A DNA stretch of 64,000 nt from assembly GCA_024760545.1 (NCBI GenBank), contig CP060501.1:2992036-3056035 (forward strand), given 5' to 3'. Source of the stretch: Nitrospira sp. (GTDB taxonomy: Bacteria > Nitrospirota > Nitrospiria > Nitrospirales > Nitrospiraceae). The position numbers and the translations under genes are program-made. Of the stretch, positions 2,023 to 63,482 are shown in pieces. The notes beneath the pieces were generated by a model that was not told the DNA's origin, did not search any database, and saw only the letters and a program-made list of their open reading frames with translations. Each line of letters opens with the position of its first letter. Within the stretch, counting starts at the first letter, position 1.

Positions 2023-5000
2023 TCATGAGGCAGTCGCATCCTTTTGGAGGGACTTGGTATCACAGAGATCGAGGCTTTGCAAGGTTGCGTTGAGTTCCGA
2101 GAAGAGTGACGGCCAGTCGTCATGGGTCATCTGGATTTCAAAGGAGAGGGGGGTTAGGAACCGCAGCCGCTTTTTAAGCTGGTCCATCAAGCGGTGGACT
2201 GCGCCCTCCGGGATTGCGGCTTTCGGTTGGAACACGATCTTTGCCGACCGTCCATGCACCTCAATGGTGGCCATGCGAAGACGTTTGGCATGAGTCCGGA
2301 GTTGCATCACTTCGAGAAGTCGTTCGACCGGTTCCGGAAGAGGGCCGTACCGGTCCTGAATTTCTCCATGCAACAGGGCCAGCTCGCCGAGTTGGCCACA
2401 CGCTGTCAGCCGTTTATAGAGGGACAGACGGTGATGCGGATCGGCCACATACAGTTCAGGAATAAAGGCTGAAACCGGCAGCTGGAGGGTCGGGTCCGGC
2501 TCTTCCTCGACAGCCTGGCCCTTCAACCGCTGGACGGCTTGTTCTACCATTTGCATGTAAAGATCCAAGCCGATGGCGGCGATATGGCCGGATTGCTGTT
2601 TCCCCAGGAGATTGCCGGCTCCTCGAATCTCAAGGTCTGCCGCGGCGATTCGGAATCCCGATCCGAGTTCCGTGAACTGCTGAATCGCGATCAATCGTTT
2701 CTGAGCATCGCCCGTGAGCGTTCCTTCGTCGGGGATGAGGAAGTACGCATAGGCCTGCTCTCCGCCGCGCCCCACTCGTCCCCGCAGCTGGTATAGCTGC
2801 GCGAGGCCGAAGAGGTCGGCCCGATGGACGATGATGGTGTTCGCGTTCGGGACATCGAGCCCGGACTGGATGATGGCCGAGGCGATCAAGACGTCAGCCT
2901 CACGCTTGACGAATTTCAGCATGACGGCCTCCAACGGCCTGCCATCCATCTGGCCGTGCGCCATGACCATCCGGGCTTCGGGAACCAACTGGTGCAGCCA
3001 CGCTCCGATCCGCTCCATGGTTTCAACCCGGTTGTGGACAAAATAGACTTGTCCCCCTCGTCCGAGCTCGCGCACGATCGCGTCTCGTACGGCCTTGTCG
3101 CTGAGTCGGATCACTTCCGTTTTGATCGCCAACCGTCCGGCGGGCGGGGTATCGATAATCGAGAGATCCCGAACACTCGACATGGCCATTTGAAGGGTGC
3201 GCGGAATGGGTGTGGCGGTCAACGTCAGCACATCAACCTGGGTGCGCAGTTGCTTCAGTCTTTCCTTATGCTTGACGCCGAACCACTGTTCCTCGTCAAT
3301 GATGACCAAGCCGAGTTGCCGGAACGCCACGTCCTTCTGAAGAAGCCGGTGCGTCCCGATCACGACGTCAATGGTTCCGGCCGAGACTTCTTTGAGAATA
3401 GCTTTGGTTTCCTTGGGCGACTGAAACCGAGAAAGCAGTGCCACCCGCATGGGAAACGGTCCGAATCGTTCGGCGAAGTTCTCGTAGTGTTGGTGAGCCA
3501 GGAGGGTGGTCGGCACCAACACGGCCACTTGTCGGTCATGCTCCACGGCTTTGAAGGCGGCGCGCATGGCCACTTCCGTCTTCCCGTATCCGACGTCCCC
3601 GCAGACCAGGCGGTCCATCGGCTTTGTCGATTCCATGTCCCGACCGATGTCCTCGATGGCTTTCAGCTGATCCGATGTTTCTTCGTACTCAAAGGCCGCT
3701 TCGAATTCGTGATAGAGGGTCGTCGTCGAGCCGTACGCATTCCGTTTCACCAATTCGCGGTTTGCGTAGAGATCGATCAGTTCTTGAGCCATCTCTTCGA
3801 TGTCCTTCTTCACCCGAGCGGTGGTTTTGGCCCAACTGGTTCCGCCAAGGCGATCCAGTCGAGGGACATGGCTTTCGGCCCCGCTGTAGCGTTGGATCTG
3901 ATTCAAACGATCGAGCGGGACATAGAGCGTATCTCCGCCGAAAAACTCCAGAATCAGGAAGTCGCTCTCGAAATCCTGCACCAACAGGCGTTTCAGTCCG
4001 CGATACTTGGCGATCCCGTGCTGCACGTGCACGACGTAATCGCTCACGTTGAGGTCTTCTAAGGAAGAGAGGAAGGTTGCCGTTCGGCTCTTTGGCTGTG
4101 GTTTATGTCGAGCTCCCTTCGCGAACAGTTCCTCTTCGGTCAACAGCGCAAGCCGAAGATCTCCGGAGAGAAACCCGGTCGAGAGATCGCCGTGCAACAC
4201 ATAAAATGGGAATTTTCCGGTAACCGGACTTGACCAGATCGACGGTTTCCATGGATCAGCCGGCAAATCGTGCTCTCGGAAAAGCGCCAGCAATCGGTCG
4301 ACCTGCCCGCGGCTCCGCGCCACCACCACGACACGATGCTCATTCCGCAGGCCTTCCAACAGACGAAGAGTTTGACTGAATGCGGCCCCCCGGACTCCGA
4401 GGCCTATGCTGCCGGGCAGTTGAGAGGAAAATGAAAAGGTCGGATTCCACGTTGGGTCCGGCGCCGTCAACGGTTCGAGCGCCAACATCGGCCACCCCGC
4501 AATCCGTTGTTGGATATCGTGCCAGGTCAGAAACAGTCGCTCAGGTGAAGGATAGGGGGACGACACGTCACGATCGACATGGCGAAGATATCCATCGTCG
4601 ATCTTTTCCCACGCCATCTCACATGTCTTTTTCAACATAGCCGGCTGATCGAGGGCGATAAAAGGGAACTCGGTGAGATAGTCAAATAATGTGTCCATGG
4701 AGTCGTACACGTCGGGGCTTCGCCACTCCGCGTCCGCCTGAATCGGCGCGATCGTATCCGTAGCGTCTGTGGGACGAATGAATTCCCGCGCCGGCAAGAC
4801 CCAGGCGTCGTTCAATTTTGTGATGGAGGTCTGGGTTGACGGGTCGAACAAACGAATGGATTCAACCTGATCGCCAAGAAATTCAACCCGGATGGGATTG
4901 GCATACGCGGTCGAAAAGATATCAACGATGCCACCCCGGATGCTGAACTCTCCTGGAATTTCCACAACGGACACGCGTCGGTATCCCAGGCGAAGCAGAT

Positions 5001-13012: not shown

Positions 13013-13197
13013 CATCGTCGCTCGTGAAACGTGAAGTGTATCTCGTCGAACAAGGAAGCTATCCGAGAAAGTCTTTTGGAGAAACTGGATCACGAGTCAA
13101 AGATGCTCAGAAATCTGATCAAGCGGTTATAGCAAAAGACGGTTTACAAGTGCGAGTTGCAGCGCATGCGAGATTCGCTTCACGAACGACGAGATGC
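13012..13197. repeat. Dispersed palindromic repeat, copy 1 (between CARF gene and ybgC)
   Basis: An inverted-repeat element of about 186 bp. The left arm at 13012-13045 contains CGTCGCTCGTGAA and GTGTATCTCG; the right arm at 13168-13197 contains GCGAGATTCGCTTCACGAAC. The right arm is the reverse complement of the left with small gaps. It starts at the last base of the CARF stop codon and extends into the first codons of ybgC, so it fills the whole intergenic space. It belongs to the same family as the copies at 23039, 23373 and 61372. Confidence 0.75.
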
Positions 13198-23038: not shown

Positions 23039-23120
23039 CGTCGTTCGTGAAGCGTTGTTCGTATCTCGCTTTTGGAACGAGTCTGTCCCACGAGATACGC
23101 TTCACGAGGAACGAGATACA
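23039..23120. repeat. Dispersed palindromic repeat, copy 2
   Basis: An inverted repeat of about 82 bp. The left arm CGTCGTTCGTGAAGCG...GTATCTCGC is at 23039-23069 and the right arm CGAGATACGCTTCACGAGGA at 23091-23119. It ends 20 bp before the start codon of the 76-residue gene at 23140 and could form a long hairpin in its leader. An open frame that runs through it into that gene is repeat-derived and was not used. Confidence 0.75.
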
Positions 23121-23372: not shown

Positions 23373-23460
23373 GAACGTGAAGCGCGAAAGATCTCTCAGG
23401 TGGACTGTATCTAAATAGATTGACGATGTATCCTACGAGATACGAGCACCGCTTCACGAG
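23373..23460. repeat. Dispersed palindromic repeat, copy 3 (diverged)
   Basis: An element of about 88 bp beginning 3 bp after the stop of the 76-residue gene. The left arm GAACGTGAAGCGCGAAAGATCTC is at about 23373-23395 and the right arm TACGAGATACGAG...CGCTTCACGAG at 23434-23460. It is more degenerate than copies 1 and 2. It ends 8 bp before the hemL stop codon and could serve as a bidirectional transcript end. Confidence 0.6.
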
Positions 23461-23468
23461 GGACTCGA

Positions 23469-60060: not shown

Positions 60061-61305
60061 ATGTCATCGAAAGAAATTCCAATCGCCAGTCAACCAGTGG
60101 TGCCCGCGGCTCAAGGGGACGAGAAACCGACATTTCCGCCCTACGACGGGCCGGCGTTCTTGTCGTACGGGTTTCGACCCTTCTTTCTGGGAGCGGCGCT
60201 GTTTGCCGGTCTCGCTGTCCTGGCCTGGGTCGCTCTGTTCGCGGGCCGGGTGCAGGTGGATTTTCTCTATCCTCCGCGCGAATGGCACGTCCACGAGATG
60301 CTGTTCGGGTATCTGCCGGCGTTGATCGCGGGATTTTTGTTGACGGCTATGCCCAACTGGACCGACCGTATGCCGCTCAGGGGCGTGCCGTTGCTCATGC
60401 TGTTCCTGCTGTGGCTGGGAGGGCGACTGCTGATCGTGTTCCCGTGGGCGGGTGCGTCTATAGCTGCAGCGGTTGACGGAGCCTTTCTGGTCGCGCTGGC
60501 CGCCTACGTGTGGCGGGAGATTGTTGCCGCGCGAACGTGGGATCGCGCGCCGATCGGGGTGTTGGTGAGTTTCTATGCCTGTGCCAATATCCTCTTCCAC
60601 CTATCGGCATTGCGCGCCGCGCCCACGGATTTTCCTGAGCGTCTCGCCCTGTCGGTCATGACGCTGATGTTGACGATCATCGGCGGACGTCTCACGCCCA
60701 CCTTCACGCGCGAGTTCTTGAGTGAACGCAACATATCCGAGCTGCCGGAGGTGTTTACTCCGGTGGATGGGATTGCGATCGCCCTGGTGCTCGCGGGTGC
60801 CGTCACCTGGATTATTCAGCCGGAGAGCCTCTTGGCAGGAGTCATGCTCATCGTGGCTGGGATGGCGAGTCTGGGGCGATTGCTGCGCTGGACCGGGTGG
60901 AAGACCTGGCCAGAGCCATTGGTGTTGATTCTCCACGTAGGCTACGGATGGGTGGGACTGTTTTTGGTAGTCCTTGGCGCATCGATTCTGGGGCTTGGGT
61001 TGTCAACTGCCAACGCGGTCCATCTTCTCACCACCGGGGCGATGGGCACGATGACGTTGGCGGTGATGACCCGAGCAAGCCTTGGCCACACGGGACGACC
61101 ACGACATGCCGATCGGCTCACCGTCGCGATCTACCTGATGATCAATCTCGGGGCCTTGCTCCGCATCTTTGCTCCGAACCCCGACACTCCCACGGCGCTG
61201 ACCCATGCAATGATGGGCTTGTCGGCGCTTAGCTGGGGTGGAGCATATCTTCTCTTTGCCCTTCATTATGGCCCCTTCCTTGTCCGGCCGAGCCTGGATG
61301 AGTAG
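60061..61305 (+). CDS. NnrS family protein
   Basis: A 414-residue integral membrane protein with about twelve helices. The N-terminal segment AFLSYGFRPFFLGAALFAGLA and the REWHVHEMLFGYLPALIAGFLLTAMPNWT region with its His residues are the family hallmark. NnrS proteins carry haem and copper and are made in response to nitric oxide. The family reduces NO stress by an unclear mechanism. Single gene. No clear NO-responsive operator was identified upstream. Confidence 0.92.
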   Translation: MSSKEIPIASQPVVPAAQGDEKPTFPPYDGPAFLSYGFRPFFLGAALFAGLAVLAWVALFAGRVQVDFLYPPREWHVHEMLFGYLPALIAGFLLTAMPNWTDRMPLRGVPLLMLFLLWLGGRLLIVFPWAGASIAAAVDGAFLVALAAYVWREIVAARTWDRAPIGVLVSFYACANILFHLSALRAAPTDFPERLALSVMTLMLTIIGGRLTPTFTREFLSERNISELPEVFTPVDGIAIALVLAGAVTWIIQPESLLAGVMLIVAGMASLGRLLRWTGWKTWPEPLVLILHVGYGWVGLFLVVLGASILGLGLSTANAVHLLTTGAMGTMTLAVMTRASLGHTGRPRHADRLTVAIYLMINLGALLRIFAPNPDTPTALTHAMMGLSALSWGGAYLLFALHYGPFLVRPSLDE

Positions 61306-61336
61306 GGGTTTCACAAGAAGAACGACTGGCGTCCCA

Positions 61337-61367
61337 TTGACCTGTGCGGTATCATTAGTATCTATAA
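61337..61367 (+). promoter_or_regulatory. Candidate ssrA promoter
   Basis: TTGACC at 61337-61342 is followed after 16 bp by TATCTA at 61359-61364 (overlapping TATAAC at 61363). It would place the transcript start near 61372, about 95 bp before the mature tmRNA, so the palindromic repeat at 61372 would lie in the leader. Prediction only. Confidence 0.35.
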
Positions 61368-61371
61368 CGCA

Positions 61372-61456
61372 CGTCGTTCGTGAAACGTGAAGCGTATCTC
61401 GCATGAAGTCCGTTGGTGTTTTGCGCTTCACGAATGACGAGTGGTAACGCTTCACA
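61372..61456. repeat. Dispersed palindromic repeat, copy 4 (upstream of ssrA)
   Basis: The left arm CGTCGTTCGTGAAACGTGAA...GCGTATCTCGC is at 61372-61402. The right arm GCGCTTCACGAATGACGAG is at 61423-61441, and a further GCTTCAC follows at 61449-61455. It ends 12 bp before the 5' end of mature tmRNA. Same family as copies 1-3. Confidence 0.7.
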
Positions 61457-61468
61457 AAGTACACGAAA

Positions 61469-61818
61469 GGGGGCGACCGGTTTCGACGGGGATACTGAGG
61501 TCACTGTCGCATGTCGAGCTCTCGGGGACTCGTAACCCTCCGGGAAAATGCAACTGCCAATCAAGAACTGGCACTCGCAGCCTAATTTAGGCTGAGACGT
61601 CGTTCCATCTGAGGCCCGCGGGGGTGGAATGGCGCGATGCAGCGGGCTGGTCCCAAGCCGGTGCTCAGCGGCCGAGGATGAGAACTTTCTGGGCTAGCGG
61701 CTGTTCTAAGCTTGCCGATAGGCGTGGATGGCTGCGAAACTTAAATTGTCGGCTACACATGTAGACGCAGTGCACTGACGATCTTCGGACAGGGGTTCAA
61801 CTCCCCTCGCCTCCACCA
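61469..61818 (+). ncRNA. ssrA: Transfer-messenger RNA (tmRNA)
   Basis: A one-piece tmRNA of 350 nt. The 5' end GGGGGCGACCGGTTTCGACG and the 3' end GGGTTCAACTCCCCTCGCCTCCACCA form the tRNA-like domain. The acceptor stem GGGGGCG pairs with CGCCTCC, and the T-arm loop is TTCAA. The encoded tag peptide reads ATANQELALAA followed by TAA at about 61552-61587, with the resume codon GCA. It rescues stalled ribosomes with SmpB. The 3' CCA is encoded in the genome. The last 22 nt overlap the recombinase gene on the opposite strand. Confidence 0.95.
61797..61818. other. Putative attachment site (attL/attR) at the 3' end of ssrA
   Basis: The T-arm and acceptor 3' end of tmRNA, a known integration target, form the boundary between the core chromosome and the recombinase gene. 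A matching copy of part of this sequence would be expected at the far island end beyond the window. Confidence 0.6.
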
Positions 61819-63482
61819 CCACGGTTGATCAGGCTCGCGCCGGTCAACAAGCGATCGAATGTCCCGGTTGCCGTGAAGCGGTAGCCGGGCTTCCCCTCCT
61901 CCAGTATTGGCTCACACAGAATATGCCCATCCAGGAGCTTTCGGAGCATCTGGCGGGAAAGATCGACATGTCGCCCGAATAACGACGGGAGACTGCCCAG
62001 CTCCTCCTGTAAGCGCTTCGTAAGCCGCTTTTGATCCAGAGAGAGGGTGGTGGCTAGCTCTTGAAGATGCTCAAGTTCCTTGGTGAGTGCGAGCTTCCGT
62101 GCCTCCTCGCGATGAAGGGAGTGCACGACGGTCGGAGTTCCCTGGCCGGTTGCGACTAATTCCACCAGGTGGTGAAGGCGAGTCTCGATCAGAGACAGCT
62201 CGCGGAGTAGGGCCGTGTGCTGGTCGGGAAAGCGATCTTGTTTGGCTCGAAGCTTCTCTAATGCCCGGGCGACGGAGGCTGTGAGGACCCGATCATCAAT
62301 GGCCTCGTTCATGGCGTGTAGGATGGCGGAATCAAGCAGGTCTTGACGGATTGAGACCGCATTCGTACAGATCGCAGGGCCGCGCTTATGATAATACGAA
62401 CACCGGTAAACGGTCTTTCCGGACTGACCCTGGGGCCCCTTCTTGATAGCTACGATGGATCCGCCGCACGTCACACACTTGGCGATGCTGCTCAAGAGAT
62501 AGGCGCTGTGCTGGTCCTCGCCGGTGGGACGGGCCACGAGCCTTCCTTGCGCTTCACGTTGGTAGGCGGCTGCGTTCTTTCTTCGCCTGGCTTCAACCTG
62601 TTCCCACAACACATCCGAGACGATACGCAGTTCAGGCGCTTCAAGGCGAATCCAGTCTGATTCTGGACGTTGGCGCCGCTTCCTCGTGCCACCGCGTTGG
62701 ATCGTCTGTGTTCGGTTCCACCACACGATGCCCCGATAGAGGTCCCGCCGAAGAAGTTCCCGGATAGCCGTTGGACACCACCCCAGAGGTCCGCCCATGG
62801 GTGGGGCAACACGATCCTCATTGAGACTCTTCGCAATGGCGGCCAAGCCAAACCCGGACGCATAGCGCTCGAAAATCTGAACCACGACCGGCGATTGCTC
62901 AGAATTGATCTTGCGGACCACATGCTGGCGTCTGAGAGTTCCATCCGCATTCCGATCCGTGCCATAGACCGGGAAATTGTCGTAGCCATAGATTTTATTG
63001 CCGGTCACATAAAGGCTTTTGGCCTTGCGCAACATGGCATCGTGAGTGCGTTGGCTCGCTTTCTCACGTTCAAACTCGGAGGCGAAGTTCGTGAGCGCCA
63101 GCAGCATCTTGTCTGTGGCGCTATCAAGCTTCCGTTCCTGGTCGGTGAGATAGAAGAAGACCTGCACCCCTGCATCGACAATCTGCTTGAAGGCATAGCC
63201 GACCTGGATGGCTTCACGGCCGAGCCGCGATTCCTCGGACATGACCAAGACCTGAAAGGGTGCGTGGGGCTTGAGGGCGTTCATGAGCCGCAAGAATCCG
63301 GGCCGTTTCACAAATTCGGCGCCGCTGACCCCGTCATCGACGAACACATGATTGTCGGAGACCGTCCAACCCTTCTTCTCGGCGTAGGCCTTGGCGTTTT
63401 CGATCTGGCGAGTGACTGAGCGGGCCTCGGCGGCTACGCCGGTCTGTTCCGTGGATTTTCTCGCGTACACAGCTGCCTGCAT
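61797..63482 (-). CDS. Large serine recombinase of an ssrA-integrated genomic island
   Basis: A 561-residue site-specific recombinase. The resolvase domain (1-150) starts AAVYARKSTEQTG, with the nucleophile Ser in ARKST, and continues with the helix region EESRLGREAIQVGYAFK. The recombinase domain (about 180-290) is followed by a zinc ribbon (CVTCGGSIVAIKKG ... CSYYHKRGPAICTN) and a long coiled coil (about 390-500). The last six codons and the TGA stop lie inside the 3' end of ssrA. The stop codon is the complement of the T-loop sequence. This shows insertion at ssrA and makes this end the island's attachment site. Convergent with ssrA. Confidence 0.92.
   Translation of the reverse strand: MQAAVYARKSTEQTGVAAEARSVTRQIENAKAYAEKKGWTVSDNHVFVDDGVSGAEFVKRPGFLRLMNALKPHAPFQVLVMSEESRLGREAIQVGYAFKQIVDAGVQVFFYLTDQERKLDSATDKMLLALTNFASEFEREKASQRTHDAMLRKAKSLYVTGNKIYGYDNFPVYGTDRNADGTLRRQHVVRKINSEQSPVVVQIFERYASGFGLAAIAKSLNEDRVAPPMGGPLGWCPTAIRELLRRDLYRGIVWWNRTQTIQRGGTRKRRQRPESDWIRLEAPELRIVSDVLWEQVEARRRKNAAAYQREAQGRLVARPTGEDQHSAYLLSSIAKCVTCGGSIVAIKKGPQGQSGKTVYRCSYYHKRGPAICTNAVSIRQDLLDSAILHAMNEAIDDRVLTASVARALEKLRAKQDRFPDQHTALLRELSLIETRLHHLVELVATGQGTPTVVHSLHREEARKLALTKELEHLQELATTLSLDQKRLTKRLQEELGSLPSLFGRHVDLSRQMLRKLLDGHILCEPILEEGKPGYRFTATGTFDRLLTGASLINRGGGGEGS

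Follow-up and report, generated by a model that had tools for sequence, protein, structure and literature searches.

The copy of a dispersed inverted repeat that stands immediately 5' of the tmRNA gene (ssrA) in the window, the whole 64,000-nucleotide stretch of Nitrospira sp. DNA analyzed here, is most probably a tolerated passenger. It would lie in a transcribed leader that RNase P removes, within a permissive pocket of fast turnover, and comparison of ssrA loci makes a working role for it unlikely. As judged from motif positions, transcription would start from a conserved block at 61327-61363, at about 61362-61372, and the first 97-107 nt or so of the pre-tmRNA would fold into a hairpin. 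RNase P would then cut before G61469, after AAA, as tmRNA biology and the conserved AAA suggest, and the leader would be discarded together with its hairpin. Within the pocket, palindromic repeats would be gained, lost, exchanged and altered in 7-nt steps. The gap would be permissive, since constraint is confined to the promoter and the last few bases, and the repeat would be kept mainly because it is harmless there.

The ssrA locus and its promoter block

The host genome comprises 4.81 Mb in two contigs. At the locus, an NnrS-family gene is followed by TTGACC (61337-61342), the repeat and the tmRNA. The RF00023 covariance model scores this tmRNA at 174.7 bits over model positions 1-374, covering the whole family, and its tag reading frame encodes ANQELALAA. 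The features of the locus are as follows.

60061-61305: NnrS-family gene, upstream of the promoter block and the tmRNA
61327-61363, + strand: conserved ssrA promoter block, TGGCGTCCCATTGACCTGTGCGGTATCATTAGTATCT, recognized by conservation among ssrA loci; its -10/-35 assignment is ambiguous
61362-61372, + strand: inferred transcription start range, from two possible -10 elements
61368-61443, + strand: predicted hairpin at the pre-tmRNA 5' end, from fold prediction and an inverted repeat beyond 500 shuffles
61372-61401, + strand: left arm of the repeat, in heptamer phase CGTCGTT CGTGAAA CGTGAAG CGTATCT CG
61424-61439, + strand: right arm of the repeat, CGCTTCACGAATGACG
61448-61455, + strand: extra right-arm unit, CGCTTCAC, aligned with relatives
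61466-61468, + strand: AAA preceding the mature 5' end, presumed context of the RNase P site
61469-61818, + strand: mature part of the tmRNA (ssrA), tag ANQELALAA, Rfam RF00023

The original prediction took TTGACC near 61337 for a plausible promoter, placed the repeat between it and the mature tmRNA 5' end, and expected a pre-tmRNA beginning with a hairpin. The positions bear out this order, since the copy occupies 61372-61463 and the tmRNA begins at 61469, and the comparison of ssrA leaders across relatives supports the upstream promoter. We extracted 95 ssrA loci (62 including the window, and 33 further ones); the named relatives that share a tmRNA 26-mer are mostly Nitrospira. The block core TTGACCTGTGCGGTATGATG (20 nt, at most 6 mismatches within 300 nt) was found at 82 of the 91 loci that have at least 300 nt upstream, versus 1 of 273 shuffles, and at 76 of the 91 when at most 4 mismatches were allowed. 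The loci missing it at 6 mismatches are L114, L118, L119, L120, L123, L130, L169, L172 and L179; L118 has it at the expected place with 7 mismatches, and L172 is masked. Across 56 aligned loci, conservation runs from a TGG located 10 nt before TTGAC to a TATCT located 22 nt after the start of TTGAC, dropping on either side; TTG is invariant, and in TATGAT position 2 is A and position 6 is T in 56 of 56. Within the window genome the block has one exact site, and its other occurrences, four of them, need 2 mismatches.

Because this block is conserved upstream of the leader, the 5' end of the pre-tmRNA very probably falls at the repeat or slightly before it, so that the RNA begins with the hairpin. 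Two start options are possible. TATCAT (61350-61355) may serve as the -10 element, with a start near 61362, or TTGACC may act as the -35 element with TATCTA (61359-61364) as the -10 element, with a start near 61371; either option would place the repeat within the transcript. A sigma-70 consensus scan of 61200-61900 returned no promoters, and neither candidate -10 reading was reported, so the inferred start might be misplaced. At the other end of the leader, RNase P generates the tmRNA 5' end. The bases at -1, -2 and -3 before the mature 5' G are A in 84, 83 and 80 of 84 leaders, and this conserved AAA fits a constrained RNase P site. An Rfam scan of the window and of the loci of 7 relatives placed tmRNA alone above the cut-off, with no other leader element, which ruled out a known Rfam element in the leader.

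Nitrospira sp. BO4 belongs to the same species as the window genome, and its upstream stretch, promoter block, leader and gene are all identical. The sequence that follows ssrA in BO4 sits about 23.4 kb further on in the window genome (G000:C1:3077260), where the last 14 nt of the tmRNA (61805-61818) are repeated. A large serine recombinase (Resolvase, Recombinase and zinc ribbon) runs from 61797 to 63482 on the minus strand and past the window end, and it ends in the tmRNA 3' end. From these alignments we conclude that a 23.4-kb serine-recombinase element is integrated at the ssrA 3' end and is missing there in BO4.

A family of heptamer-built inverted repeats

The left arm at 61372-61401 matches a reference copy at 13016-13045 at 93%, and a copy at 23039-23068 matches that reference at 77%. 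With at most 3 mismatches, the pattern TCGTGAARCGTGAAGCGTATCTCG matches twice in the window and 0 times in 100 shuffles, and a slightly wider form has 9 matches genome-wide, with 0 for a reversed control. The predicted hairpin consists of a 13-bp core, 61372-61384 with 61427-61439, and weaker inner and outer pairs. The longest inverted repeat in the copy, with at most one mismatch, comprises 12 Watson-Crick pairs; 500 shuffles gave a mean of 6.9 and a maximum of 11. The predicted RNA fold of the 114-nt stretch is unexceptional (-32.6 kcal/mol, z -1.11; 28 of 200 shuffles equal or better). Elsewhere in the window, at 23376-23465, CGTGAAGCG words in facing orientation adjoin the copy at 23039-23113.

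The arms are built in a 7-nt phase. GTRAR words at distance 7 form 51 pairs in 82 unique ssrA leaders versus 0.3 expected from shuffles, and 18 pairs in 25 stretches of the window genome versus 0.2 expected. Across 23 clusters of genomic copies, five words account for 70 of the 93 heptamers in phase (CGTGAAG 26, CGTCGTT 13, CGTATCT 13, CGTGAAA 12 and CGTCTCT 6), a share that is partly by construction because runs had to contain a family word. A crude rule places 12 of the 23 clusters outside ORFs of at least 80 aa. One relative has an unbroken heptamer array, with matches in steps of 7 over G176:C25:58523-58574.

A heptamer-built inverted-repeat family is widespread in the Nitrospira family. 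The 17-mer CGTGAARCGTGAAGCGT, with at most one mismatch, has 15 sites in the window genome and as many as 155 in one relative, and it is present in 68 of 77 genomes of the genus; its reversed control has 0 sites in the window genome and was found in 2 of the 77. In a sample of 118 genomes of the phylum, 28 contain CGTGAARCGTGAAGCGT. These are 13 of 14 from the genus (the window's own genome included), 9 of 9 from other genera of the same family and 6 of the 93 remaining genomes, with 1 to 11 sites each; both genomes from another family of the same order are without it (0 of 2). The reversed control pattern, of TGCGAAG-type heptamers, is itself frequent in another family of the phylum, f7, where G081 and G090 have 27+20 and 16+10 sites. 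Those two genomes and other members of f7 may therefore carry a different heptamer repeat family.

The Nitrospira literature that we covered on palindromic, repetitive and tandem repeats leaves the heptamer family undescribed; most subscription papers lay outside this scope, so this is not proof of absence. Searches on heptamer repeats in bacteria, on pre-tmRNA and RNase P, and on insertions in ssrA leaders turned up nothing pointing to the window repeat. For Nitrospira moscoviensis, an excerpt of PMC12306157 puts the number of predicted REPs at 3,788, and passages of PMC5767232 concern CRISPR, not the window repeat.

Content, turnover and folding of the leader pocket

From the TATCT of the block to the gene, leaders range from 34 to 226 nt (60 leaders). 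After 11 of the 95 loci were left out, for having no promoter match (at most 7 mismatches, 50-300 nt), a contig end or masked bases, 84 leaders could be classed: 33 heptamer, 16 with a MITE-like palindrome that we call B, 9 with partial or remnant B, 6 hexamer, 9 short, 6 other, 4 weak heptamer and 1 mixed. Palindrome B (GGTTGTTCAAAATGGC ... TTTTCAACAACCTG, 150-220 nt) occupies this same pocket in many Nitrospira species, for example at L041, L061 and L067, and in some leaders it is cut down to its CAACAACCTG end. Palindromes with a 6-nt unit, of GGTTGAGGCTGAGG type, occur in the pocket at L016, L071, L180 and L129. Two different ssrA loci, L115 (PLBR01000206) and L176 (PLBR01000099), occur in palsa_1310, a metagenome-assembled Nitrospira, and may reflect a mixed assembly or two genes.

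The content of the pocket changes between close relatives. In five pairs (L025/L029, L025/L022, L012/L011, L012/L016 and L137/L143) the leader is swapped beside a gene that is 99% identical, with the promoter block 86-95% identical and the 110 nt upstream 91-95% identical. The leaders at L025, L021 and L020 differ by single-unit losses, and that at L012 retains just the right tail of what its close relative L011 contains, most of the arms being gone. On an IQ-TREE tree of ssrA (81 rows; three truncated genes excluded, and five short leaders with a B tail scored as B), the leader classes need at least 25 changes versus a mean of 36.5 with shuffled labels, and are therefore partly inherited. The window gene falls in a clade of 9 (support 97/95), of which 3 have heptamer leaders and the other 6 have B or its remnants. 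The tree is built on about 345 nt and has many weak branches, that of L183 being aberrant, and species may have exchanged ssrA itself.

The heptamer pattern was found in none of the 110-nt stretches upstream of 30 tRNA genes of the window genome (30 of 45 found), which ruled out a general habit of RNA-gene leaders. When the window is cut into 581 tiles of 110 nt, 2 of them contain it; the ssrA copy, split by a tile border, is not one of these. Set against the 33 heptamer leaders at ssrA, the tRNA control supports a preference of the repeat for the ssrA leader, in a comparison of one genome with many related genomes.

Fold z-scores lie below -2 in 30 of 60 leaders (median -1.96) and in 29 of the 49 longer than 60 nt; none of the ten leaders of 34-47 nt folds that well. 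Eight homologous heptamer leaders have a mean column identity of 78%, which could reflect selection. The pairs of the window hairpin form in 84.5% of the cells of their alignment, versus 21-49% for slid versions. Covariation is no higher than in shuffles, with 1 of 25 pairs altered on both sides (mean of 1.0 in shuffles) and 8 of 25 invariant, and the alignment speaks neither for nor against selection on pairing. Precursors were folded for 62 of the 84 loci, the others having no recognized 3' end, and folding of such long RNAs is rough. In the window, the acceptor stem is predicted to pair at 0.99-1.0 with the leader attached, and pairing between leader and mature part to be negligible. Mean predicted acceptor pairing is 0.97 in 26 heptamer leaders and 0.98 in 7 short ones, compared with 0.64 in 12 B leaders, 0.59 in 9 partial B leaders and 0.68 in 5 hexamer leaders. 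Interference with the acceptor stem is thus predicted for some B and hexamer leaders, so the prediction of an inert leader does not extend to all loci.

Competing readings and known repeat systems

The original prediction had also proposed that the repeat could change the processing or stability of the RNA. This idea is weakened by leaders of 34-47 nt that lack marked structure, by the leader swaps beside near-identical ssrA genes and by an acceptor stem that is predicted to stay undisturbed. We regard it as unlikely that the hairpin itself is selected, either to shield the pre-tmRNA 5' end or to tune RNase P cleavage, with the repeats interchangeable. The frequency of heptamer and B palindromes (33 and, with parts of B, 25 of 84 leaders), the predicted sparing of the acceptor stem by heptamer leaders and the lack of the heptamer pattern upstream of the 30 tRNA genes all speak for selection, and the excess of well-folded leaders would also be expected if the hairpin were useful. 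However, the short leaders do without such a fold, covariation equals that of shuffles, L012 has lost most of the arms of L011, and the repeats are palindromic wherever they are located, so structure arrives with them. Quite improbable, in our estimate, is a more elaborate version in which selection maintains the leader as a sequence-independent hairpin cassette. This cassette would cap the 5' end against decay or time RNase P and would be refilled repeatedly from the genome's palindromic repeats, while heptamers would spread by an undescribed copying of in-phase 7-nt words.

That the pocket is an insertion hot spot, a target favored by mobile MITE- or REP-like elements and not merely permissive, seems improbable as well. 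Several unrelated palindrome families in one pocket, the number of class changes on the tree and the ssrA-tRNA difference would suit it. Yet a Y1_Tnp (RAYT) gene is absent from the window genome, no target-site duplication was identified at a locus that has no clean empty site, heptamer leaders from distant species can be aligned from end to end, so that many were inherited or exchanged, and the tRNA control comes from one genome only. Least credible is the idea, also raised in the original prediction, that the repeat supplies the true promoter, located within or after it, the hairpin then being absent from the transcript. No textbook promoter was found upstream, in keeping with that idea, but the upstream block is conserved, is essentially unique to ssrA in the window genome and is retained by repeat-free relatives. 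Moreover, the A-rich end, with AAA at -3 to -1, is the sole conserved part between repeat and gene. On the strength of the block and this pattern, a main promoter in either position was rejected.

If the repeat is indeed a passenger, a nearly universal RNA has a precursor that can absorb much insertion and turnover while its promoter and cleavage site are kept. The natural series of leaders, from almost none through a heptamer hairpin to a 200-nt palindrome, is well suited to tests of what the pre-tmRNA leader does.

It is useful to set the repeat beside known systems. Like REP and BIME elements, it is a short, dispersed, imperfect palindrome, and it may also resemble them in a largely intergenic location and in the number of copies per genome. 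It differs from those associated with RAYT in that a Y1_Tnp (PF01797) search gave 0 matches in the window genome (5 of 14 control genomes were positive), which ruled out REP elements moved by a RAYT transposase, and in that its arms consist of in-phase 7-nt words. To our knowledge, such words are not a hallmark of REPs. The STRRs of cyanobacteria are heptanucleotide direct repeats, and the window repeat likewise has a 7-nt unit in tandem. As described in PMC4679880, TAACTGA heptanucleotide direct repeats of Beggiatoaceae, Cyanobacteria and Bacteroidetes share with it a 7-nt unit, a variable unit number and probably a mostly intergenic location, whereas the window repeat has several in-phase words, arrays that face each other as a palindrome, and a different lineage. 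With MITEs and REPINs it shares the form of a non-coding inverted-repeat element of about 60-220 nt, including terminal inverted repeats (61372-61384 and 61427-61439), and the B-type leader of relatives resembles such an element; it differs in having no demonstrated target-site duplication or partner transposase (PF01797 searched). In E. coli, the pre-tmRNA has a short leader that RNase P removes. The window leader would likewise be cut off at the tmRNA 5' end, but it would be about 97-107 nt long with a repeat hairpin, and the ssrA leader is hypervariable across the genus.
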